A DNA stretch of 64,000 nt from NCBI RefSeq assembly GCF_000720925.1, contig NZ_JOEE01000004.1, positions 1 to 64,000 of the forward strand, written 5' to 3'. This document shows, piece after piece, positions 1 through 9,834 of the stretch (its first letter is position 1; the number at the start of each line of letters is the position of its first letter). Under the pieces are notes generated by a model. That model did no database searches. It was not told the DNA's origin and saw only the letters and a list, made by a program, of their open reading frames with translations. The position numbers and the translations under genes are program-made. Source of the stretch: Phycicoccus jejuensis (GTDB lineage Bacteria > Actinomycetota > Actinomycetes > Actinomycetales > Dermatophilaceae).

Positions 1-1
1 C

Positions 2-82
2 TGGCTCGAGCAGTACAACACTCAACGACGCCACACCGCCCTCGGCGGACTCCCACCGACCAGCCGCCTGTCACCAACCTGA
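2..82 (+). pseudogene. C-terminal tail of an IS481-type transposase (cut by window edge)
   Basis: Only the last 26 codons of a transposase lie in the window, ending at TGA 80-82. The residues YNTQRRHTALGGLPPTSRL match the end of the DDE catalytic domain of IS481-family transposases (family knowledge). A second frame from 73 to 99 continues as TNLMAGYI before a TAG, which is also a plausible IS481 ending. A small indel near 70-73 may therefore have shifted the frame. The 5' part, and so the element's activity, cannot be judged. Together with the neighbouring orphan genes it marks mobile DNA. Confidence 0.75.
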
Positions 83-99
83 TGGCCGGGTACATCTAG

Positions 100-441
100 A
101 TCGGTCGACGGCGCGGAGTTTCGTCGAAGACTGGCGGTTGTCGTGGAACGCCCTCGCGGCATCGTGGCTCCGGTAGGTCGCCGATCGCACGCCATGCTGG
201 CCTCGTCGTTCGTCGAGCGGTGCGCGTCACGGACCCGGCGTTGTCCCCTCTCCCGCGAGCCGAGGCGGGCCCACGGCGTCCGTTCGTGTCTCGCGAGCAC
301 CACTTCTGTGCGTGGTTCGCGGTTCTCCTGGACGCTTGACCCGCGCCTTTCGCACCGATACCCGTGTCGAGTCGGGGCACGTTGCCGGGCGACGTGACGG
401 CCCCACTGACCCGTGACCTGCGGATGCGGTGCGCCACGTCG
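100..441. other. Stretch without a supported gene
   Basis: About 340 bases downstream of the transposase remnant. The open frames here, including one on the minus strand at 96-437, are rich in Arg, Ser and Thr and have no hydrophobic core pattern or recognisable motif, so I do not call them. Degenerate insertion-sequence flank is the likeliest content. Confidence 0.4.
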
Positions 442-636
442 TCACACGTTGGTGCTTCCTCCGTTGAGCGCCGAAAGCTCCTGCGAGATCGAGAGCAAGG
501 CCGCGATCTGCGCCACCTGCAACTGCTGGTCGATGGTCAAATGCTCGGTGTCGTACACAGTCAGGCTGTCGCTGCCGTCTGCAGCCTGCCGAATGGCCCT
601 CAGCAGTAGGTCCCAGCTCTTGCTGTAGTCGTTCAC
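442..636 (-). CDS. Small hypothetical protein, 64 residues
   Basis: I do not recognise this protein. It is acidic and largely helical in character, with an amphipathic stretch TIDQQLQVAQIAALLSISQE (residues 34-53) that could pair as a short coiled coil. The start is GTG at 636, with GGAG seven bases upstream inside GAGGGAGC (minus strand). It lies 104 bases downstream of the tandem helix-turn-helix gene on the same strand and may be its last co-transcribed partner. Codon choice and composition look like a real gene. Function is unknown. Confidence 0.6.
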   Translation of the reverse strand: MNDYSKSWDLLLRAIRQAADGSDSLTVYDTEHLTIDQQLQVAQIAALLSISQELSALNGGSTNV

Positions 637-740
637 GGTGAAGCTCCCTCGCGTCAGGCATTATGCCGATCGGACTTGCGGGCGGACCGCGGACGCTTCC
701 CACCGGAAGACACGGTGGACCTGTGCGCCTGGTCGACCCC

Positions 741-1466
741 TCACCTGCCGGAGCGTAGGCGCTTGGTCTGACGGGCCGACTGGCCGTGGAGGTAGCCCAT
801 GTGCACCGGGAGCGACACGGGCCGGGCGCCGCAGAGGGCACAGCGAGCCAGAGCGTCTGTCTCGAGCCATCGGGTGATGGTCGTCGACAGCCACACCGGC
901 CGGCCCGTCGCGGTGATCCAGTCCGGTTCCGGCAGGTGCCGCCAGTTGCGCACAGCTGAGTCGCTCACCCCGGCACGGCGGGCGATGGACTCGCGAGTCT
1001 CGATCCCTTCAGGCAGCTGGGCCGGGCGGGGGAACGGACCGTGCGGTGTCGTGAAGCGCTGCACGATCCCCGGCAGGACACCGAACTCCAACGCGATCGC
1101 CCCTAGCGAGCGGCGCTGCTGGCGCGCCTCCACCCACGCCTCGATGGTCTCGCGCGACGGGAACGGCCCCCACCCACGGGTTGCCCGGGTGACGGTCTGG
1201 TGCGAGACCTGGTCACGCTCAGCGATCTCCTTCACACGCATGCCCAGGCGGCGGTTCATGACCCACCGTTGCCGACGCTCCTCGAGCAGGAAGGCGGCGA
1301 GGTAGGTCCCACCCTCCTGCCGGTTAGCCTTCGGGAACGGTCCAAACCGCTTCGTCGCCTTCTCCACCCGCGAGGCCGCCACCCCGGCTCGCTGCGCGAT
1401 CAGCCGGACCGACTCGCCGGCGCGTCGCCGTGCGAGCCAGTCCAACTCCGGATGGCCGTCGGGCAT
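741..1466 (-). CDS. Tandem helix-turn-helix repeat protein with C-terminal zinc-finger-like motif
   Basis: A 241-residue protein I cannot assign to a named family. Three modules each pair an HTH-like core (IAQRAGVAASRV, IAERDQVSHQTV, IALEFGVLPGIV) with the tag GPFP at residues 42-45, 100-103 and 143-146. A fourth HTH at about 157-177 (IARRAGVSDSAV) is followed by GRPVW and a WL-rich helix, recalling AlpA/excisionase-type DNA binders. The end holds C209-x2-C212-x9-H222-x4-H227, a possible Cys2His2 zinc site. The ATG at 1466 shares its A with the TGA of the upstream small ORF (TGATG), so the two were probably translated together. A DNA-binding role is inferred; the target is unknown. Confidence 0.7.
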   Translation of the reverse strand: MPDGHPELDWLARRRAGESVRLIAQRAGVAASRVEKATKRFGPFPKANRQEGGTYLAAFLLEERRQRWVMNRRLGMRVKEIAERDQVSHQTVTRATRGWGPFPSRETIEAWVEARQQRRSLGAIALEFGVLPGIVQRFTTPHGPFPRPAQLPEGIETRESIARRAGVSDSAVRNWRHLPEPDWITATGRPVWLSTTITRWLETDALARCALCGARPVSLPVHMGYLHGQSARQTKRLRSGR

Positions 1467-1678
1467 CAGCAGGCGTCGTCTCCAGCACTCGCCGCCCGGG
1501 TCGCCGCCGCCAAGGTCGTTGCCACGACAGCAAACACCAAAGTGACCGGGTTCGCCCCCACGTCCACAATCAGCGGGCAGACGACGACAGTGAATACGAG
1601 GCCGCGCAGGGGCTAGGCGACGCTGGCGAGGTCGATGCGTCTCAGCGTGCGCCGGCCGTGTCCGTGGCTGTGCGTCAT
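1466..1678 (-). pseudogene. Small membrane protein interrupted by an in-frame TAG
   Basis: From ATG 1678, behind a strong Shine-Dalgarno (AGGAAGGACAGG), 21 codons (MTHSHGHGRRTLRRIDLASV...) run to a TAG. The same frame then continues for 48 sense codons with two hydrophobic stretches (LVFTVVVCPLIVDVGA, VTLVFAVVATTLAA) and ends in TGATG, which is the start of the helix-turn-helix gene. Without the TAG it would be a 70-residue protein with one or two membrane helices. Candidate explanations are a nonsense mutation, a sequencing error, or a true 21-codon leader followed by a re-initiating membrane peptide without a good start codon. Confidence 0.5.
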
Positions 1679-2265
1679 CATCCCTGTCCTTCCTGGGCTG
1701 CAGTTCCTCGGGGACGGTCCAGTGCGTTCGAGTATTGCCGTTCTCCTTCGTCACGTCTTCACGGATGCACGAGTTGAAGACGTCCGTCTCGAGGAGGACT
1801 ATGAGGCGTTCATCGCCGAGGTCGCCGAACTCTGGGCCCTCCTATCCGAGCGGCACGACGTGCTCATCGCGGTGGGGCGGCCACTGGGTGCTCCCAGGGC
1901 TGACCCCGTAGACGGGCCGCACGTCGATCTTGTAAGACGTGCCGGCGCCGGGCGCGCCCACATCGTCCCCTCGTCGTCGGCGAGGCCCCGCGCTCACAGT
2001 CGAATGCGGCCGTCGCCGAGTCGCCACTTGGGGTCGCGATGGGTCCATCCATTCGGGCGCGTCGACGACCTGCAGTCGGAGGACCTGCGGCCCTGCGGCA
2101 TGGAGCCGTCGATCAGGGGAAGGTTCCATCAGGAACGGGCTCAGCCGGCTGCGCACGCTCGAGGTGACGCCGACCACGGCCGACGTCAAGGACGCGCCGA
2201 AGCGCCTCCGCGTGCGGGCAGTCCGCGCCTGGTTTGGCAGAGTGCGTCTGGCTGGCCGTTCACGG
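1679..2265. other. Stretch without a supported gene
   Basis: Between the divergent helix-turn-helix operon and the nuclease-like gene. A plus-strand frame at about 1730-1870 has a believable acidic segment (DVRLEEDYEAFIAEVAEL) but dissolves into Arg/Pro/Ser-rich sequence. It has no convincing start and may be a decayed gene. The promoter of the minus-strand operon should lie just above 1700. Confidence 0.35.
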
Positions 2266-2271
2266 GATACT
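2266..2271 (+). promoter_or_regulatory. Possible leaderless -10 element (GATACT)
   Basis: GATACT is followed by a 7-nt spacer and then ATG 2279, the same geometry as the TAnnnT elements ahead of many genes in this window. No convincing -35 is visible. Confidence 0.4.
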
Positions 2272-2278
2272 CGCAGCC

Positions 2279-2902
2279 ATGGGTTCCGTAGGCGTCGTGT
2301 TCTCGCGTGCGCTGAGGGAGGCTGTGCGGCTGCCACTCTCTTGGAGCCGCGTCGAAGCGGCTCTGGAGGCTCAGCCGGAACTTGTCAGGCACGCCGACCG
2401 GCTGGCGCTGCTGGAGGGTCACGTCAGGGCGACCTTGGCGCTTGGCAAGCCTCTGCCGGGGGCTATGCGCGCGTCTGTGGTCCCCGTACTCGGCAACGTC
2501 GCCGAGGCCATCGTGGAGATGGAGCTAGTCGAACGCGGTTGGCAGCCGGTCTACGACGACGTCGAAGGGTTCTCCTTCGGGCCGGGTATCGATCTACTCA
2601 TGCTCGACCCCCCTCTCGAGCGTCTGGTCGCCGTCGAAGTGAAGTCGACCATCCAGCGAGGGCGCTGGCCTCGACTGTCCAGGGGAGGGTCGAAGCAACT
2701 GACCGCGCAGTGGCTCGACGATGGCGCCAATGTTGGTATGGCGCAATGGGAGATTGGGTCTGAAGACGTTTACCTGCTGGTGGCTCAGGTGCGCCTCCGC
2801 GAGCGCGTCTGGCGATGTTGTATCGCCGCAGATCCGACCCGAGCACTGCCGGTGACCGATGAGGCGCAGCTCAAGGACTTGCGCTGGTTGGACGGGGCCT
2901 GA
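2279..2902 (+). CDS. PD-(D/E)xK nuclease-like hypothetical protein
   Basis: A 207-residue protein whose middle shows the restriction-endonuclease-like core: E76 in GNVAEAIVE, D105 in GPGIDLLML, and E120-V-K122 in LVAVEVKST. These match the metal-binding Asp/Glu/Lys set of PD-(D/E)xK enzymes (family knowledge). The N-terminal third is helical and could recognise DNA or a partner. ATG 2279 was preferred over GTG 2234 because the core alignment does not need the extra residues and a -10-like hexamer sits 7 nt before it. It stands alone, and substrate and role (restriction, toxin or repair) are unknown. Confidence 0.65.
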   Translation: MGSVGVVFSRALREAVRLPLSWSRVEAALEAQPELVRHADRLALLEGHVRATLALGKPLPGAMRASVVPVLGNVAEAIVEMELVERGWQPVYDDVEGFSFGPGIDLLMLDPPLERLVAVEVKSTIQRGRWPRLSRGGSKQLTAQWLDDGANVGMAQWEIGSEDVYLLVAQVRLRERVWRCCIAADPTRALPVTDEAQLKDLRWLDGA

Positions 2903-3411
2903 ACCAATATCGCGACCAGTCGGCTCGGCACGGTGTCCCCGCGACCGCTACGAGAGCAGCGCGCGGCTTGACGCAGCGGGTCCTGCGGTCAGGTCGGCGC
3001 CGCAGAGCACGTTGACGAGGGGCGCGACGAGAGGAGGTCCGCGCACCTCTTCGAGCGCCGAACGGTCGCCTCGATGGCAGGCAGATGTTGTCTTCAGGCG
3101 ATTGGGAATGTCAGGTGCGAGGTCAACTCCGTGCACCCAGCTCCCCGAGATCTGCTCCGGTCCTCCCTGACAACTCCCGTGTGCAGCGCTCGTCCGGCTC
3201 GGGCTCCGGACCAGAGATCGCTCGGCAGCTGCTTTCCCGACATCCGCTGGATCGAGCGAATGCCCGGCTGCGCGTCGACTCTTGCGACCGCTATCCGGTT
3301 GTGGGACGCTCCGGCAGCGCTCGATTCGGCCGGTGCTGCAGGAGTTCCGGGCGTCGCTTTTCCTCAGGCGCTCACGTGCATAGGCTTCGAGCCGACGAGG
3401 GGAGCCAACAC
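2903..3411. other. Intergenic stretch without a supported gene
   Basis: About 500 bases. Frames on both strands are open only through lack of stops in GC-rich DNA and show no motif. The promoter for the following gene must lie in the right part, but I see no clear -10/-35 pair. Its ribosome-binding site (GAGGGGAG) is at the very end. Confidence 0.4.
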
Positions 3412-4575
3412 ATGGCGTACGGGTTTCGCATCTTCGGTGTACAGGCGTTCGAGAACCGCGTAGCAGGCAGCAACGCTGCTGACGCGAGTATCGACGGCGC
3501 CCTGCATCGAAACGTGCTCGACTGCCTTCAGGAGATGGAAGGGCGAACCTACTTTCAGAAGAAGCGGGCGTCGGCAGATCCCGACCCTCTGGCGCCCAAG
3601 CCACGCCGACGCTCGATCTCGATCCGGCAATACGAGGAATGGGCGAACGGGTGGGTGCACCTGTCTGTGTCGATCGGTCGGGAGGGCGACCATGACCGCG
3701 CGACCGCCGAAGGGCAGCCCCCCTTGCCGATCAACGAGCGTTCAGCGGAGAGTCGCCGTCTCGTCACGATGGTCTTCCCACCAGCAGGGGACCGGTTCCT
3801 GATGGTGAGCGAGGCGATCGGCGCCAGCGACGCGCACGAGCTGCTGCTGAAGCAGCTCACAACCGCATCCATGAAGCTGCGCGACGACACGAAGGTCGCT
3901 TCCCAAGAGGCACGCCGAGCCGCCAGGGCCGCAGGGGTAACCCCGCTCCCCAAAGTCCTCAAGCCGGACCGATACATCTTCCGAAGCAGTCAGCTGATCG
4001 ACGGCGATTACCTGGACGAGCTGCTGGCTCGCGCAGAGACCGTCGACGCCGTCTTCACGTTGAACGTGCCATCTCCTCGTGGAGGCAGCGGCACCTACCA
4101 GCGCAAGCGTCTGGTCGTGAAGGTCGAAGACGAGGGCGAGCGGCGGGACCTGAGTCGAACCGGACAGCAGTGGTATAAGCGGAAGAAGCAGAAAGACGCA
4201 ATTGGTCAGCGTGAAGCCATCGCGGAACTGGACGCGGTTCTTCACCTCGACGCGGCCGAGACGGCGGGCTTCGACGAGGTAGCGGTCAAGGTGCGCACTC
4301 GTGACGCGGAGACAGTGACCATCGGACCTCTGACTGCCCGTGAAGTCTTCACGTACCCGCTGTCATGGAGTCAGTGCTCACCTGTTGACTACTACCGGAA
4401 GATCGAAGGTCGCTTGCGTCGCGTCGCGGCGCTGAACGACATCGAGATGAGCACGATCGACTCAGTGGAGGCTGCACGGTGTCTACCGCCGATCACGGAC
4501 GGCCCCACGGAAGACTCAACCCAGGCAACCTTTTCCGAGCCGCCGGCGCGGGACTTCGAATCCGAAGCAAGCTAG
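3412..4575 (+). CDS. Hypothetical soluble protein coupled to a membrane partner
   Basis: A 387-residue protein I do not recognise. It has no signal peptide or membrane segment. It looks like a mixed alpha/beta protein, with a beta-rich centre (RRLVTMVFPPAGDRFLMVSE, about 120-139), a basic helical stretch around 160-180 and an acidic, disordered-looking end. The ATG at 3412 has GAGGGGAG about 8 nt upstream, which decides the start over longer frames. Its last 97 bases overlap the next gene, whose Shine-Dalgarno lies inside this one, so the two are made together. The pairing of a cytoplasmic protein with a four-helix membrane protein in an island suggests a two-component defence module (inference). 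Confidence 0.65.
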   Translation: MAYGFRIFGVQAFENRVAGSNAADASIDGALHRNVLDCLQEMEGRTYFQKKRASADPDPLAPKPRRRSISIRQYEEWANGWVHLSVSIGREGDHDRATAEGQPPLPINERSAESRRLVTMVFPPAGDRFLMVSEAIGASDAHELLLKQLTTASMKLRDDTKVASQEARRAARAAGVTPLPKVLKPDRYIFRSSQLIDGDYLDELLARAETVDAVFTLNVPSPRGGSGTYQRKRLVVKVEDEGERRDLSRTGQQWYKRKKQKDAIGQREAIAELDAVLHLDAAETAGFDEVAVKVRTRDAETVTIGPLTAREVFTYPLSWSQCSPVDYYRKIEGRLRRVAALNDIEMSTIDSVEAARCLPPITDGPTEDSTQATFSEPPARDFESEAS

Positions 4576-5042
4576 ACACTGAGAAGCCTGATGTCGCTAC
4601 TCGGTACGCCTTGGCCCTTGCGCCGGTGGCGGTGTTCCTGCTCTGCGTGAGTACGCGCGTGGTGCTGGTCCAACCAAGTCAGCTCACGGCAGTGTTCGGT
4701 CTCATGTCCACGGCCATGTTCGCCGCCTTTGCCTTGATCGCGCGCTGGCGTGAAGTTCTATCGGCCCGAACAAAGGTAGTCGACAAGATCCCGAAGCGCG
4801 CTCTCGATGAGGCGGTGGCACACGTCCTCATCGCCAGTCTCACGGGCATATCTGGAGCTGCGCTTACCGTAGTCCTCACTGTCATCCCCACTTCTGCACC
4901 GGGAACGACGCCGCACCTCGTCGCGGTCATCCTGACGGCAGCCAGTCTCGCCTTGGGAACGGTCTTCTTCTTGACGCTTCTGATCATCATCAACCTCCTG
5001 CATGATGCCTATCAACGGGTCAACCCGCCCCCTCCGAAGTAG
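4479..5042 (+). CDS. Four-helix membrane protein, partner of the preceding gene
   Basis: A 187-residue protein with about 40 polar N-terminal residues and four hydrophobic segments at roughly 43-63, 69-88, 112-136 and 146-173, ending in a short VNPPPPK tail. The loop between helices 2 and 3 is charged. GTG 4479 is preceded by GTGGAGG at 7 nt, although it lies 97 nt inside the upstream gene in another frame. Such a deep coding overlap argues for obligate co-expression. The arrangement is reminiscent of KwaA-KwaB (Kiwa) or other systems with a membrane effector, but gene order differs and I see no sequence similarity, so that is an analogy only. Confidence 0.65.
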   Translation: MSTADHGRPHGRLNPGNLFRAAGAGLRIRSKLDTEKPDVATRYALALAPVAVFLLCVSTRVVLVQPSQLTAVFGLMSTAMFAAFALIARWREVLSARTKVVDKIPKRALDEAVAHVLIASLTGISGAALTVVLTVIPTSAPGTTPHLVAVILTAASLALGTVFFLTLLIIINLLHDAYQRVNPPPPK

Positions 5043-5432
5043 GCAGACCGGGTCCAGACAGCGGGGTCGGGGCCAGTGCCGGGAGATGGTGTCTCCGCGG
5101 CCCCACGCTTGGCCGGCGACCGTTGCGCTGCCCCGTCGCCGCAACTACGAGCACGCGACCCACGCTGCATAGCCGAGAACGTCCGTGGCCACGGAGCGAG
5201 CGGCGGGCGAGAGGTCGTGGCGCCGTGAGGATGGCTTCAACCCCGTGGGTCGCTATCTCAACCGCGGCTGGGAGAGCGTCGCACGCTGACCCGTTGAGTG
5301 GCGTGTGCCACATCCGGCCTACTGGTGCGCGCGTGCCTCGAGGGCACTGTCCTAGGCGACCCGTAGGCTCATAATCTCAGCGACAGCCGCCGCTGGTAGG
5401 CACCGCCGGGGAGAGAGGCAGGAGCAGTCACC
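5043..5432. other. Intergenic region with probable promoter for the ImmA/IrrE operon
   Basis: No gene is supported in these 390 bases. Near the right end, TAGGCT followed by CATAATCT (about 5364-5377) offers one or two -10 elements. AGGAG lies 8 nt before the ATG at 5433. The left half is featureless. Confidence 0.4.
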
Positions 5433-5924
5433 ATGACGCGGGAACCTTCCCGACTCACCAACGCTGCGATCCGTCAGTACGCGGAACGGGTGGGGGAGCA
5501 CCACGAGATCTACGACCGCGCTGGCACGGCAGACCTCCACGACCTCGTGCGCCGGCTCGGTGGCCGACTGGCGATCGGCGACAGCAAAGAGTCGCTCCAT
5601 GTCAACGCTCCGGGGGACTTCGTCATCTACCTGCCACGCCTGACCTCATCGCGACGCGACCGGTTCACCATCGCGCACGAGCTCGGGCACTACTTCCTGC
5701 ACTACCTGCACCCGGGGTCGGAAACGGCTGCCAGCTTCGGACGCGGTGAGCGAAACCCGGTGGAGACCCAGGCAAACGTCTTCGCTTCCTCCCTGCTCAT
5801 GCCGGAGAGGGTTTTCCGCGAGGCGTGGCGCCTCAAGGATGGAGACGTTCACGCCCTGGCGCGACAGTTCGAGGTATCCCCCGCCGCCGTCGCCGTGCGG
5901 GCGCAGGTGCTTGGTCTGTCGTGA
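5433..5924 (+). CDS. ImmA/IrrE-family zinc metallopeptidase
   Basis: A 163-residue protein with the gluzincin motif HELGH at residues 82-86 and the third ligand E111 in ETQANVFASSLLMP, the typical ImmA/IrrE signature. The C-terminal ALARQFEVSPAAVAVRAQVL is a short helix-turn-helix-like tail common in this family. Known members cleave HTH repressors in phages, mobile elements and the Deinococcus DNA-damage response. No adjacent XRE repressor is visible. Instead the stop codon overlaps the start of a cyclase-like gene (GTGA), so its trigger or substrate may be linked to that protein. The start at ATG 5433 is supported by AGGAG. Confidence 0.85.
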   Translation: MTREPSRLTNAAIRQYAERVGEHHEIYDRAGTADLHDLVRRLGGRLAIGDSKESLHVNAPGDFVIYLPRLTSSRRDRFTIAHELGHYFLHYLHPGSETAASFGRGERNPVETQANVFASSLLMPERVFREAWRLKDGDVHALARQFEVSPAAVAVRAQVLGLS

Positions 5925-6892
5925 CCACCCCACACTCCCTGCTCTTCCTCTCCTGCGACATCGTCGGCTCCACGAAGTTCAAGCAGCAGCGAGATCTGTG
6001 GCAGATCACGTTCCTGTCGTTCTACCGGCAGTTTCCTCAGATGCTGGGCGACATCACCGTCGCCCAGGAGATACACGGCCCATTCGAGCTGTGGAAGCCG
6101 GTCGGCGATGAGCTGATCTTCACCGTGCGTGTCAGTCACGAGTCCGAAATCTTCGCGGCCGTGCGCAGCTGGCTCGAAGCGATGAAGCAGTACGAGATGG
6201 TGCTGGCCAAGGAAGGACTCGCCACCAAGGGCGGCGCCTTCCTGGCCACCTTCCCCGGCCCCGACAGCGAGAGCTCCATCCCGAGGGACCCCCGCACCGA
6301 GACCTCGGACAAGGGCGTCGTGGAACTGAACGACGAAGCGTTGGCGACGCGCTCGGCCGACTACATGTACGACTACTTCGGTCCGAGCATCGACACCGGT
6401 TTTCGGGTGCTGTCCGCCTGCAGCCAACGGCACTTCACCCTCTCCGTCGAGGTCGCGTGGGCGATGGCTCAGTGCGCAGTGGACGCAGGAGTGGACGAGA
6501 GCACCTTCCCGCTCGCGGACATGCGCCTGCTGGACACGCGCGAGTTCAAGGGCGTGTGGGACGGGCGTGAGTATCCGCTGTTCTCCCTCGACCGCCACCA
6601 CGACGACTCAGTCAACCGGGCGCTGGCCAAGCTGCGGAACCCGGCCGTGCAGCCACTCGCCGTGGTCAATCTCTGTCGCGCCTGTGGTGACGACCCGAAC
6701 TGGCCCTCCGGTCTCTACCTGCCGAACTCGTCGTGGGCCTCGTTCAGAACGGTCCCCACAGACAGCTTGGAGAACGGTCGCTCCAACAGCATGGATGGGG
6801 CCGAGACCGTGCCCGAGTCCGACCCCGGTGTCGAGTCGCTGGAGGCGGACGCGCCGCTGTCGAGCACCCCGACAACCATCGACAGCGACTGA
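5921..6892 (+). CDS. Class III nucleotide-cyclase-like protein
   Basis: A 323-residue protein starting at GTG 5921, four bases overlapping the ImmA gene. Residues 7-19 (LLFLSCDIVGSTK) carry the first metal Asp (D13). WKPVGDELIF carries the purine-selecting Lys position (K59) and the second metal Asp (D63). GPSIDTGFRVL aligns with the usual N-x-A-A-R transition-state segment, with Asp (D158) in place of Asn and Arg (R162) kept. These are the class III adenylate/guanylate cyclase landmarks also shared by Pycsar pyrimidine cyclases (family knowledge). The last 100 residues contain a CxxC (LCRACGDDPNW) and a disordered acidic tail. Product and activity are unknown; no cyclic-nucleotide-binding effector is adjacent. 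Confidence 0.75.
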   Translation: MTTPHSLLFLSCDIVGSTKFKQQRDLWQITFLSFYRQFPQMLGDITVAQEIHGPFELWKPVGDELIFTVRVSHESEIFAAVRSWLEAMKQYEMVLAKEGLATKGGAFLATFPGPDSESSIPRDPRTETSDKGVVELNDEALATRSADYMYDYFGPSIDTGFRVLSACSQRHFTLSVEVAWAMAQCAVDAGVDESTFPLADMRLLDTREFKGVWDGREYPLFSLDRHHDDSVNRALAKLRNPAVQPLAVVNLCRACGDDPNWPSGLYLPNSSWASFRTVPTDSLENGRSNSMDGAETVPESDPGVESLEADAPLSSTPTTIDSD

Positions 6893-7030
6893 ATGGCTGT
6901 CGGCAGGCAGCCCTCGCGCGATGCGCGCACTTCGGCTAGGCGCAGCAGCATTGGCGTGCGGGCCGATGCAGTCACAGTCGACTCAGGTGAACGTGTCGTC
7001 AGCCTCAGCTCTGCCTCTTGCCGGTGGCAC

Positions 7031-7036
7031 TACCCT
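7031..7036 (+). promoter_or_regulatory. Leaderless -10 element (TACCCT) of the sce7726-like gene
   Basis: TACCCT, a 7-nt spacer, then ATG 7044. No Shine-Dalgarno precedes the start, so a leaderless transcript is the simplest reading. Confidence 0.45.
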
Positions 7037-7043
7037 TCCTCCC

Positions 7044-7622
7044 ATGCGTGACAGTGACATCCGCAGCGCCCTGACGCTCGCTGTCGCCCGCTCCATGGGG
7101 GAACAACGACACGTCCTTGTTCCGGAGGTGGACATCCGATGGTCGGTGCCCGCTCGGATGGACGCGATGCTCGTGAGCGATCGCCTGTGCGCTTTCGAGA
7201 TCAAGAGTGACGTCGACAGCCTGAGCCGGTTACCGAGGCAGGTGCAGGCGTACGGAATGGTGGCCGAGCGGGCCACGCTGGTGGTCGGCGAGCGGCACCT
7301 TGCTGGCGCTTCCCAGCTGGTCCCGCCGTGGTGGGGGATCTGGGTGGCGCGGTGGCGAGACGGTCAGGTTGTGCTGACTTCCAGACGCGTCGGTCGCCTG
7401 AACCGTGAGGTCAACCCGTTGGCCGTCGCGAGCTTCTTGGACCGGCGCGCGCTGCTGGCGGCGCTGAGGGGTAGCGGCACGCCGAGACTGGCGAGCTTGA
7501 GCGTCGACGATCTTCGACAGCTGCTCATCGCAGAAATGGGCTCGTCTAAGACATTGCGACTTGCTCGCCAGACGCTCCTCGAACGCACCGATTGGCGCGG
7601 GCGCTCGTTGACCGCCGCCTGA
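7044..7622 (+). CDS. sce7726-family PD-(D/E)xK-like protein
   Basis: A 192-residue protein resembling the sce7726 family: DIRSALT at the N-terminus, E28 in VLVPEVDIR, D40 in ARMDAMLV, then E52-I-K54 in AFEIKSDVDSLSRLPRQVQAY. The Glu/Asp/ExK spacing is that of the PD-(D/E)xK nuclease fold. Family members have no established function and are often found on mobile elements. Longer in-frame starts exist, but ATG 7044 fits the family N-terminus and has a -10-like element 7 nt before it. It converges with a beta-family gene, with 8 bases between the stops. Confidence 0.75.
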   Translation: MRDSDIRSALTLAVARSMGEQRHVLVPEVDIRWSVPARMDAMLVSDRLCAFEIKSDVDSLSRLPRQVQAYGMVAERATLVVGERHLAGASQLVPPWWGIWVARWRDGQVVLTSRRVGRLNREVNPLAVASFLDRRALLAALRGSGTPRLASLSVDDLRQLLIAEMGSSKTLRLARQTLLERTDWRGRSLTAA

Positions 7623-7630
7623 CTGGTGAG

Positions 7631-8728
7631 CTACGCGGTTCCGGCAGCCGGAGACGACGGCGGAGAAGTCAGCTGGTCCGCAACCAGCGCGAAGTGGTGC
7701 TCAGCTGCGATCTGCCGCCACTTACCGGCCGACGACTCCTTGTCGGCGTTGCCGGCGATATCGGCCAGCCTGCCGTCGGCTCGGCTGAAGCTGGCGCCGA
7801 GCCAGTGCGGCTGTCCCACCAGATGCGCGCAGCAGACGGCGAAGGCAGCCGCAAGGCCGCCACCGGACGAGGGCTTGGCACGACGGTGCACGTGCAGCCG
7901 GTCCTGGCTCGAGTACCGAAGATGGCCGTACTGCGGTGAGGCCGGGACCGGGTTGGCCGGAGGGTAGAGGGCGTAGTCGCCGAAGACGACCGTCCGGCCG
8001 GCCTCCCTCACGCGCAGCCACAGCCACCACTCGCGCCGTGCCACGTCCCAGTCGCCGACCTGAAGAAACGCTTCACTGTTCGGTGTGCCGAGCGTGACAA
8101 TGTGGCCGTGCTTGGAGCCGAGCGCGTCCACGGTGCGGATCGTCCGTTCGACGAGCTCGTCGAGGGCGAGGTCCTCAGTGTGGTCGGCGAAGTCGAGCAG
8201 TACGTCTATGTCAGCGGCGCCGATGCCGCTCTCGGTCGCGACCTCGTCCAAGCGGTCGGGAAGCCGCGGCGAGGGATCGGTTTCGTGCATGGGCACGCGC
8301 ACCGCCAGTCGCCCGGAGGTGCGAGCGACGTCGGCTGCGGCGGTGACCTCTTGCTGGTCTGCCGATATGAGCAGCACGGGAATGAGGCGCGCGGGGGTCG
8401 CAGCGAGATCGTTCAGCGCTGCCAGAAGGCGCCACCAACGTGTCCCCGACCCAACCTGTCCGTCGATGACCCGGCAGATGTCGACGTAGGCCGGATCGCT
8501 CCACAGCCGGGCAATGTCGTCAAGGAAGTAGGAGATGTCGGTGGTCGTCGCCTTGGCCCGCCGGGGCTGGCCGGTGGCGGGATCGACTGAACCGGCCGAG
8601 GCTCGCTGGAGCTCGAAGAGCGGGGTCAGGCGCAGTGCCTGAGGCGCGCGCATCAGCGCCTTGATCTCCGCTTCCCGAGCTTTCAAGCACGGAACGTAGT
8701 CCAGCTGGTCCAGGGGCAAGAGAAGCAC
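7631..8728 (-). CDS. Beta-family protein (phage T4 beta-protein-like)
   Basis: A 365-residue protein starting at GTG 8728. The opening YVPCLKAREAEIKALM followed by LTPLFEL is the hallmark N-terminus of the beta-protein family (named after a T4 protein). The sequence then continues as an alpha/beta barrel-like chain (DISYFLDDIARLW, DVLLDFADHTEDL, IVTLGTPNSEAFL). A basic, glycine-rich segment (residues 280-300) ends in a region with WLGASFSRADGRL. Biochemical function is unknown. These proteins recur in prophages and defence islands near ImmA/IrrE and nuclease-like genes, which matches this setting. No clear ribosome-binding site is seen. Confidence 0.7.
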   Translation of the reverse strand: MLLLPLDQLDYVPCLKAREAEIKALMRAPQALRLTPLFELQRASAGSVDPATGQPRRAKATTTDISYFLDDIARLWSDPAYVDICRVIDGQVGSGTRWWRLLAALNDLAATPARLIPVLLISADQQEVTAAADVARTSGRLAVRVPMHETDPSPRLPDRLDEVATESGIGAADIDVLLDFADHTEDLALDELVERTIRTVDALGSKHGHIVTLGTPNSEAFLQVGDWDVARREWWLWLRVREAGRTVVFGDYALYPPANPVPASPQYGHLRYSSQDRLHVHRRAKPSSGGGLAAAFAVCCAHLVGQPHWLGASFSRADGRLADIAGNADKESSAGKWRQIAAEHHFALVADQLTSPPSSPAAGTA

Positions 8729-8954
8729 TCCTCGAGTGGCGGGGGTAAGGCGGTCGAGACTAGAGCGCCATTCGCAGAAGGATGCCGAACACGCGGGCGA
8801 GCACGAGGCAGGTTGCGGCCACGTCCGCCCTCGGCCGCTCGCTCATCCGACGCTCAACCACCCTCCTGCTCCTTGCTCGATTAGCCGAAGTCCACCCACG
8901 CCGCGTTCGCGAGTAGCCCCGGAGGCGAGCGGCGCCGATCCCACTCGATCGCGG

Positions 8955-9584
8955 CTAGCGGAAGAGTTCGACCGCCAGTTCCCGCGCAGGCTTGCCCACA
9001 TCCTCATGCCTGAACGCGCGAAGGTAGCCAGCTGGGACGGAAGCCAACTCATCCCTCAAGCTAGCCGCAGCACGATGAATCAGGGCGAGGAGCGAGTCGT
9101 CGCTTCGCTCCCAGCCGACGAACAGCAACCACCCCTGCTGGTAGGCAGTCCTCTCGCGGGAACAGAACGCGGCCAGTGTGAGGAGGTCCTTCTCCAGTCC
9201 CCGCTTCGTGATGGTCGACGCGATCTTGACCTCCACCACCACAGCGTTCTCGTCGGTGCCGGGGACGTGCCACACCAGGTCAGGTTGATGGCGGCCATCT
9301 TTCGTGACTGCGTGTAGTCCTTGCTTGTCGATCTCGCCGCCGAGCGAGTAGTACGGCGCCCCGGCCCTGACGGCCATAGGGTCAGCTCCATCGCACAAGG
9401 TCCTCAGCTGGTGGTAGAGCTCGTAGCAGTAGACACGTTCGCGGTACACCTCTTTCACGCGCCTACCGTGTTCGTCGCTGACCGGCATCAGCATCCACGG
9501 CCGTTTGACCTTGGAGCACGCTTTGGCCAGGAGCGGTTCGAACGCGGAGGCTGCGACGTCGGGACTCAAGTCGTCAGGCGGCAT
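8955..9584 (-). CDS. PD-(D/E)xK nuclease-like hypothetical protein
   Basis: A 209-residue protein with a recognisable but unnamed layout: RERVYCYELYHQLR (residues 48-61), LGGEIDKQGL with E84, PDLVWHVPG with D102, and NAVVVEVK with E118-V-K120. This reproduces the acidic/ExK active-site pattern of the PD-(D/E)xK fold. Some relatives carry unhelpful names in databases; I do not trust a specific function. ATG 9584 is chosen. TAAAAG lies 7 nt before it, a poor -10 because it lacks the final T. It is the last gene before the probable island boundary. Confidence 0.6.
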   Translation of the reverse strand: MPPDDLSPDVAASAFEPLLAKACSKVKRPWMLMPVSDEHGRRVKEVYRERVYCYELYHQLRTLCDGADPMAVRAGAPYYSLGGEIDKQGLHAVTKDGRHQPDLVWHVPGTDENAVVVEVKIASTITKRGLEKDLLTLAAFCSRERTAYQQGWLLFVGWERSDDSLLALIHRAAASLRDELASVPAGYLRAFRHEDVGKPARELAVELFR

Positions 9585-9809
9585 AGGGACCCTTTTACTT
9601 CACCCGTGGGTGGCCGCGAGGACACATCCATGCGAAGTCACAGGCGTCGGAGGGCAAAAGTCCTCGTATCGGCCGCGGTCGACGGTGCGGGCTGATTCTC
9701 GCTCAATGTGACCAGCGGAGCTGATACGAACCAGCCGACCTCGGGTGCATCTGGGGCACAACTGACCATCTCAGCGTGACCAGGTGGGGCACGACACAAG
9801 CAGCGCGGT
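9585..9809. other. Island flank without a supported gene
   Basis: No gene is supported between the last island gene and the tRNA-like sequence. The right half contains two copies of TGGGGCAC (about 9748 and 9784), which might be arm-type or accessory sites for an integrase, but this is weak. Confidence 0.3.
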
Positions 9810-9834
9810 GGTTCAAACGATTCCCCCGCTACCA
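9810..9834 (+). other. Probable attachment site: remnant of a tRNA-Met 3' end
   Basis: The segment begins GGTTCAAA and ends CCCCCGCTACCA with the spacing of a tRNA T-loop to acceptor end. From memory, actinobacterial initiator tRNA-Met genes end with the same 12 bases and have the same length between these blocks; the four bases that differ break the T stem. No other tRNA arms are present. The pattern of a truncated tRNA 3' end followed directly by a terminator is what a site-specific integrase leaves at the right junction of an element. The other junction would lie left of the window. Confidence 0.5.

Follow-up and report, generated by a model that had tools for sequence, protein, structure and literature searches.

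A rare mobile gene pair encoding an ImmA/CapP-like protease and a putative class III cyclase-fold protein

The window analysed here, a 64,000-nucleotide stretch of a Phycicoccus jejuensis contig, contains two overlapping genes on the forward strand: an ImmA ORF at 5433..5924 (ATG start at 5433, TGA at 5922-5924; 163 aa) and an ORF for a class III cyclase-fold protein at 5921..6892 (GTG start at 5921, stop codon ending at 6892; 323 aa). The start of the second gene and the stop of the first share a GTGA (5921..5924, + strand). Re-reading both ORFs returned exactly the gene coordinates and the shared GTGA of an initial annotation of this DNA; its description of the genes as "translationally fused by overlap" is right for the four-nucleotide start/stop overlap and wrong for the fusion, as two separate proteins are encoded. 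Short overlaps or spacings also occur in relatives. Measured mechanically in 37 loci, from the stop codon of ImmA to the earliest start codon available to the cyclase, the gap lies between -99 and +8 nt in all but L026, whose cyclase ORF is broken; in 10 of these 36 loci the overlap is exactly 4 nt. The window pair scored -99 in this count, as the calling picked an in-frame start further upstream. Truncated or broken cyclase ORFs beside ImmA were seen at L140:3054-3605, L141:1346-1897 and L026:7244-7990, which suggests decay in some hosts.

The product of 5433..5924 is an ImmA/IrrE-type (M78) zinc metallopeptidase. Its best PADLOC model is capP (E 1.2e-26), its best PDB sequence match is CapP (7t5t, E 3.4e-8), and its AF2 model (pLDDT 93.6) places CapP 7t5t at the top of the Foldseek matches, followed by PprI/IrrE. 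The HELGH zinc motif (residues 82-86, 5676..5690, + strand) and E111 (5763..5765, + strand), the candidate third zinc ligand by its role in the M78 family, are both intact as first annotated, and the protein has the PF06114 domain (E 8.1e-22), the HExxH motif and the downstream Glu by which an M78 peptidase is recognized. H82, E83 and H86 are invariant in the 28-row ImmA alignment and kept in 41/42, 41/42 and 42/42 loci, respectively, and E111 is invariant in both sets (28/28 rows, 42/42 loci). R75, present in 42/42 loci, appears from its distance to HExxH to be the counterpart of PprI R85, which the available text of PMC10904395 describes as an ssDNA-binding Arg; the same source reports that PprI requires a C-terminal GAF-like region for activation by ssDNA. 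The window ImmA stops at 163 aa, without this GAF-like region, and its trigger may differ. No recognizable cyclic-nucleotide domain was found in ImmA by Pfam scan or in its AF2 model.

The fold proposed for the second protein is predicted with high confidence: the model matches class III cyclases in Foldseek, including the Anabaena uridylate cyclase 8jsz (AnPycC), and the predicted protein shows the class III catalytic fold. By sequence alone, the cyclase profile retrieved no cyclase from the PDB (all matches at E 0.13 or worse), and PF00211 matched none of 30 family members at E 0.1. An hhalign comparison with a class III profile from relatives of the host set D13 and D63 on the class III Asp residues (E 2e-5, probability 77), in a match that spans the first part of the cyclase domain only. 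Outside that stretch, the correspondence of D151, D158 and R162 was assigned from motif and from the secondary structure of the model.

Active-site conservation was counted over 48 cyclase sequences, two of which lack the N-terminal part. The two metal Asp residues, D13 (5957..5959) and D63 (6107..6109), are found in 46/46, as is E64, and the substrate Lys K59 (6095..6097), which aligns with the Lys of KTVGDE, in 45/46, with Arg in phiCD27. R162 (6404..6406), placed by motif at the transition-state Arg position, and K210 of the KG[VI] motif (6548..6550) are each present in 48/48, and D151 (6371..6373), at the adenine-specificity Asp position, in 47/48, with Glu in phiCD27; all these codons, and that of D158 below, lie on the + strand. 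We take K59 to occupy the K938 position of mammalian AC, D151 the D1018 position of adenine specificity and K210 the triphosphate Lys position, K59/D151 presumably being an adenine-type base-selecting pair. The Ma1120 PDB titles "KDA to EGY" among the structural matches agree with this adenine-type reading. The initial annotation had named D13, K59, D63 and R162, and all four stand where it placed them, invariant or nearly so throughout the family; the Asp that it had seen in place of the usual Asn is likewise real, D158 (6392..6394) being Asp in 48/48 at the class III transition-state Asn position. The equivalent residue is Asn in 15/16 chromosomal class III domains of relatives, in an alignment read by eye. 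As far as the aligned sequences show, both metal Asp residues, the transition-state Arg and the phosphate and base positions are retained, and the sole canonical Asn is Asp throughout the 48-sequence set. This substitution may give an inactive or an altered enzyme, and the product of 5921..6892 is, by its modelled fold, a class III-fold protein and a putative rather than proven cyclase. Two positions ahead of D13 the family has Ser in 45/46 (Ala once), where the chromosomal class III references, like AnPycC and EaPycC, carry Phe.

The cyclase-fold protein ends in a low-confidence tail (residues 290-323, 6788..6889, + strand; pLDDT about 59) that includes L307 and a PL at 312-313. L307 is invariant and P312 nearly so in the 30-row cyclase alignment. 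The motif [AP]PLG falls within the last 45 residues in 47 of 120 relatives, where shuffled sequences gave a mean of 1.0 and a maximum of 4, an excess that is inflated by the relatedness of the 120 sequences; PL[GSDPAEN] is absent from the last 60 residues in 17/120. A PL occurs near the end in five of the six alphaproteobacterial members (L032-L037), and the PL tail is missing in L046 and in the versions from Leptospira, C. difficile and Sphingomonas.

Relatives of the cyclase numbered 301 in a protein database and at least 378 with a more diverse profile, for which 7995 candidates were scored. Loci were taken from genome contigs (32 loci), viral contigs (9 loci), phage records (7) and plasmid records (7), with L042 and L043 duplicating L020 and L022. 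An ImmA ORF ends no more than 300 nt upstream of the cyclase in 44 of 48 loci, the window included; of the four exceptions, three (L024, L033, L047) are truncated where the contig stops, and the Sphingomonas locus L006 has no ImmA there. A later viral set of 62 rows, reduced to 44 distinct places by dropping 18 repeats and including the earlier nine viral loci, has ImmA beside the cyclase in 60 rows and 42 places, the misses being L088, at a contig end, and L095. At least 25 of the 44 places are C. difficile-phage copies, nearly all alike, and owing to these copies and to the nine repeats of the earlier set the independent viral cases are fewer than 44. Across both sets, two loci (L006 and L095) have a cyclase without a neighbouring ImmA despite readable upstream sequence. 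Between the best 120 cyclase entries and 119 typed ImmA entries, 39 equal sizes of the longest contig were found, an equality that suggests, and does not prove, the same contig. Pairwise ImmA and cyclase distances are correlated (r 0.91, n=42, duplicates L042 and L043 left out), with 0/2000 permutations as high and the best at 0.32; within the 23 nearest loci alone r is 0.62, again with 0/2000 permutations as high. This co-variation partly reflects shared ancestry. The initial annotation had held that the pairing would be accidental if homologues did not co-occur or if the cyclase fold prediction failed; homologues do co-occur, the fold prediction succeeds, and the adjacency counts, equal-size contigs and co-variation rule out accidental neighbours. 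On one viral contig, IMGVR_UViG_2724679514_000002 (L092, L119), there are two distinct ImmA-cyclase pairs. A Mycolicibacterium plasmid (L003:3623-4198) and a Mycobacterium contig (L029:2605-3180) each have an additional, more distant ImmA ORF ending about 0.2-0.25 kb upstream of the ImmA of the pair.

The surroundings of the window pair point to foreign DNA. GC content is 0.62-0.69 over the first 10 kb of the window vs 0.71-0.78 over the next 6 kb, and blastn against the same locus of three congeners gives alignments that begin at 9810, 10137 and 10159. The nearest congener is 90% identical from 9810 on and has a tRNA-Met exactly at that point, where comparison with it reveals a degenerate copy of the tRNA-Met 3' end (9810..9834, + strand) as an att-like island boundary. 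An intact tRNA-Met is found on another contig of the host, C14 (L162 1235-1309), behind the congener's left flank, to which C14 is 95% identical over 1303/1305 bases; past the tRNA-Met, C14 continues into different DNA with a 2156-residue ORF that by eye is YD-repeat-like or Rhs-like. The GC shift, congener alignments, tRNA copy and C14 together place the pair within the right-hand end of a tRNA-Met island, of which 1..9809 is the right-hand part, the contig beginning inside it, and we infer that C14 and the window contig, C4, hold opposite ends of a single island. Neighbours within the island include a sce7726-family protein (NF033832, E 1.9e-29; PADLOC cll, E 1.9e-20) and a Beta protein at 7631-8728 on the minus strand (PF14350, E 1.4e-42), which also matches the PADLOC model PD-Lambda-2_C (E 2.4e-23) from a known antiphage system. 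A protein with four hydrophobic segments (4593-5042) ends 390 nt upstream of ImmA and is itself preceded by a 387-aa protein (3412-4575); the two are possibly another two-gene system, and neither had an NCBIfam or PHROG match at E 0.01 or a Pfam match above cut-off.

Both genes are rare. The cyclase was found in at least 1/396 genomes of the phylum, at least 1/396 of the order and at least 1/12 of the genus, the window's own being the only one among the matches listed, in which at most five candidates per genome were scored, so that holders may be missed; the same search recovers 8/8 known holders, themselves identified through the search alignment or its query. An ImmA of the pair type (E up to 1e-10) is present in 1/396 genomes of the order, that of the host. 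By record names, carriers belong to four phyla, represented by Actinomycetota, Alphaproteobacteria, Leptospira and C. difficile phages, and the pair is carried by phages, plasmids and a chromosomal tRNA island. It is present on a Tistrella conjugative plasmid and annotated on pLiSL34 and pLiSL21, and some prophage copies adjoin an integrase. In phage phiCD27, an HTH repressor with an M78 protein of its own behind it (orf44/43) is encoded apart from the pair (orf38/37), which is thus distinct from the ordinary repressor pair of this phage.

A third conserved gene was sought by all-against-all clustering of ORFs of at least 70 aa within 6 kb of the pair in the 48 loci. The clusters of three or more loci consisted of shadow ORFs of the pair, integrases (six loci, of which two are duplicates), ABC ATPases, short-chain dehydrogenases and groups due to chance or to duplicates, and a conserved third gene was rejected. 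A Pfam tally of 128 of 184 neighbours from 37 loci gave at most four members per family (25 of 133 families listed), integrases being 4/128. No recurrent PycTIR or PycTM effector was found in the window by Pfam and PADLOC or in clusters of three or more loci. The four-segment membrane protein at 4593-5042 was considered as a Pycsar-type effector and set aside, with no domain above cut-off and no cluster of three or more loci. At E 1e-10, PADLOC reported 72 families among the 128 neighbours, mostly many models on few proteins, with mad3 matched in three neighbour proteins. Among neighbours scanned individually, six of 30 had a PADLOC match and 24 had none, counts without a control set from which no enrichment is claimed; the six are two at L012 (Gabija), two at L003 (PDC-M30), one at L023 (dGTPase) and one at L027 (PDC-S41). 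Other loci have uninformative neighbours. The phiC2 region of the pair includes a gene annotated as AbiF, and the host genome has two matches to cNMP-binding domains. The proposal of an "uncharacterised signalling or defence module" is upheld by co-occurrence and fold as far as a gene module goes; the case for defence, drawn from mobile carriage and some defence-like neighbours without a control set, is circumstantial.

ImmA proteases are usually accompanied by an XRE repressor, and Pycsar-type cyclases by TIR or membrane effectors. The remark that neither an XRE nor a TIR partner adjoins the pair holds in the window (ORF list, Pfam, PADLOC), and some elements have XRE genes at a distance of a few kb. 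In the available texts, PprI and CapP are described as ssDNA-activated and as cutting a repressor (PMC10904395, PMC13373217), and the partners cleaved by known ImmA-type proteases are ImmR, DdrO and CapH (PMC2701414, PMC10904395, PMC13373217). The CapP-CapH and PprI-DdrO systems share the two-gene layout of protease and partner, and the window protease is nearest to CapP by sequence and model; their partner, however, is an HTH repressor, whereas here it is a cyclase-fold protein, and no CapH-type HTH partner adjoins the window pair (ORF list, Pfam). ImmA-ImmR of ICEBs1 and phage ImmA-repressor pairs are likewise carried by mobile elements and place an M78 protease next to a presumed partner, but that partner is an XRE repressor, which is absent from the ImmA-cyclase pair, and phiCD27 has both kinds of pair. 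Pycsar has a class III-fold cyclase in a compact operon, with AnPycC 8jsz a structural match, yet it includes a TIR or cNMP-binding membrane effector, and no such effector recurs beside the ImmA-cyclase pair. The base-selecting residues given in the available text of PMC11224242 are F60, K104 and F109 in AnPycC and F100, R142 and Q144 in EaPycC, in place of which the window cyclase has S11, V61 and I66 or S11, K59 and V61, when matched by distance from the metal Asp; the residues of these two clades (D and E) are not found in it. Its Lys/Asp pair is as in adenylyl cyclases. A Phe two positions ahead of the first Asp is no mark of PycC alone: the class III domains of relatives of the host have it too. 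Chromosomal class III adenylyl cyclases (PF00211) share the fold, both metal Asp residues, the Lys, the Arg and the DxFG motif, whereas the window family has an invariant Asp for Asn, a Ser for Phe and an extra C-terminal region.

LE1 ORF2/ORF1, phiC2p42/p41 and PHROG 18024 and 6174 belong to the same family as the pair. The annotators of phiC2 noted similarity to "phage LE1 ORF 2" and "ORF 1", and PHROGs divides the cyclase between two families without an assigned function; the LE1 and phiC2 annotations mention only a metallo-protease and a hypothetical protein and do not state a cyclase nature. The available text of Makarova 2009 (PMC2701414) counts phiC2 and LE1 as phages that have COG2856 operons and regards the pairing of a COG2856 protease with an Xre partner as TA-like. 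No description of the pair or of its cyclase nature was found in the literature searched, which mostly excluded subscription papers and preprints.

An overlapping ImmA/CapP-like protease and class III-fold cyclase remain together, diverge together and are carried by mobile elements; all beyond this conserved pair, its folds and its residues is inference. We tentatively favour a reading in which the cyclase would be the partner or substrate of ImmA and proteolysis would gate a nucleotide signal. The cyclase takes the place of the repressor (ImmR, DdrO, CapH), which would make it the partner and probably the substrate of ImmA, and the gene overlap, the co-variation and the conserved flexible tail of many members argue in the same direction. 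Infection or DNA damage would trigger ImmA, which would dock on or cut the cyclase, perhaps at the flexible tail that many members have, and so switch its nucleotide synthesis. Given the K59/D151 pair, the signal would probably be made from ATP, and since no dedicated effector gene recurs it may act through host receptors or ImmA itself. The likely benefit would be defence of the element or the host, or superinfection control. More doubtful, although conceivable, is the broader proposal of a new mobile nucleotide-signalling immunity, in which a CapP/ImmA-type protease and an Asp-for-Asn cyclase would form one switch, and cyclase proteolysis or a nucleotide-activated protease would turn infection or DNA damage into a signal that is possibly not ordinary cAMP or cGMP.

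The chief rival, a rather unlikely one, reverses the order of events and is Pycsar-like: the cyclase would sense infection and make a cyclic nucleotide, and ImmA would be a nucleotide-activated effector protease that cuts host or phage proteins. The restriction of the module to two genes, with no other recurrent effector, and a cyclase fold whose matches include 8jsz are consistent with it, but ImmA has no recognizable cyclic-nucleotide domain, known ImmA-type proteases cut one specific partner, and the protease is the first gene. We consider it improbable that the pair is a toxin-antitoxin-like addiction module in which an unrestrained cyclase would be harmful, by signal overload or NTP drain, and ImmA would degrade or restrain it; plasmids and temperate phages are its carriers, the genes overlap and co-vary, and the TA-like view of COG2856 protease/Xre pairs cited above names phiC2 and LE1, yet L006 and L095 have a cyclase without a neighbouring ImmA. 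Control of lysogeny or transfer, with the pair using a nucleotide and proteolysis to regulate prophage or island induction, and not to protect the host, would fit prophage carriage, in some cases beside an integrase; it is less probable again, as phiCD27 has a separate repressor and M78 pair and as plasmids and a chromosomal island also carry the ImmA-cyclase genes. Least probable in our estimate is a pseudo-enzyme whose cyclase fold would merely bind a nucleotide as a sensor and control ImmA. Asp in 48/48 against Asn in 15/16 chromosomal class III domains would fit this reading, whereas a pure sensor need not retain the other catalytic positions, both metal Asp residues and K210 included, as this family does.

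Nucleotide second messengers and ImmA-type proteases both serve bacterial immunity and the control of mobile elements. In the systems compared, the protease targets repressors and the cyclase targets dedicated effectors; here the two are encoded as a pair, in four phyla. A module that joins protease and cyclase directly would add a layer of proteolytic control to cyclase signalling and would give a function to PHROG 18024 and 6174, and the chemical consequence of an invariant change from Asn to Asp in the active site is open to experiment.

The C. difficile phage version of the cyclase departs from the window protein in length and in base-selecting residues. At 528 residues (L002:4830-6416), it has an extra C-terminal region with a weak Nudix match (PHROG 1198, E 0.0074), for which Pfam at E 0.1 gave no match and which by eye resembles a Nudix fold whose Nudix box is degenerate. 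The base-specificity pair is Arg/Glu instead of Lys/Asp in phiCD27 and the C. difficile phages. Another lineage, L095:1270-2645, has an integrase-like ORF upstream of the cyclase in place of ImmA, and a similar C-terminal part in another frame.
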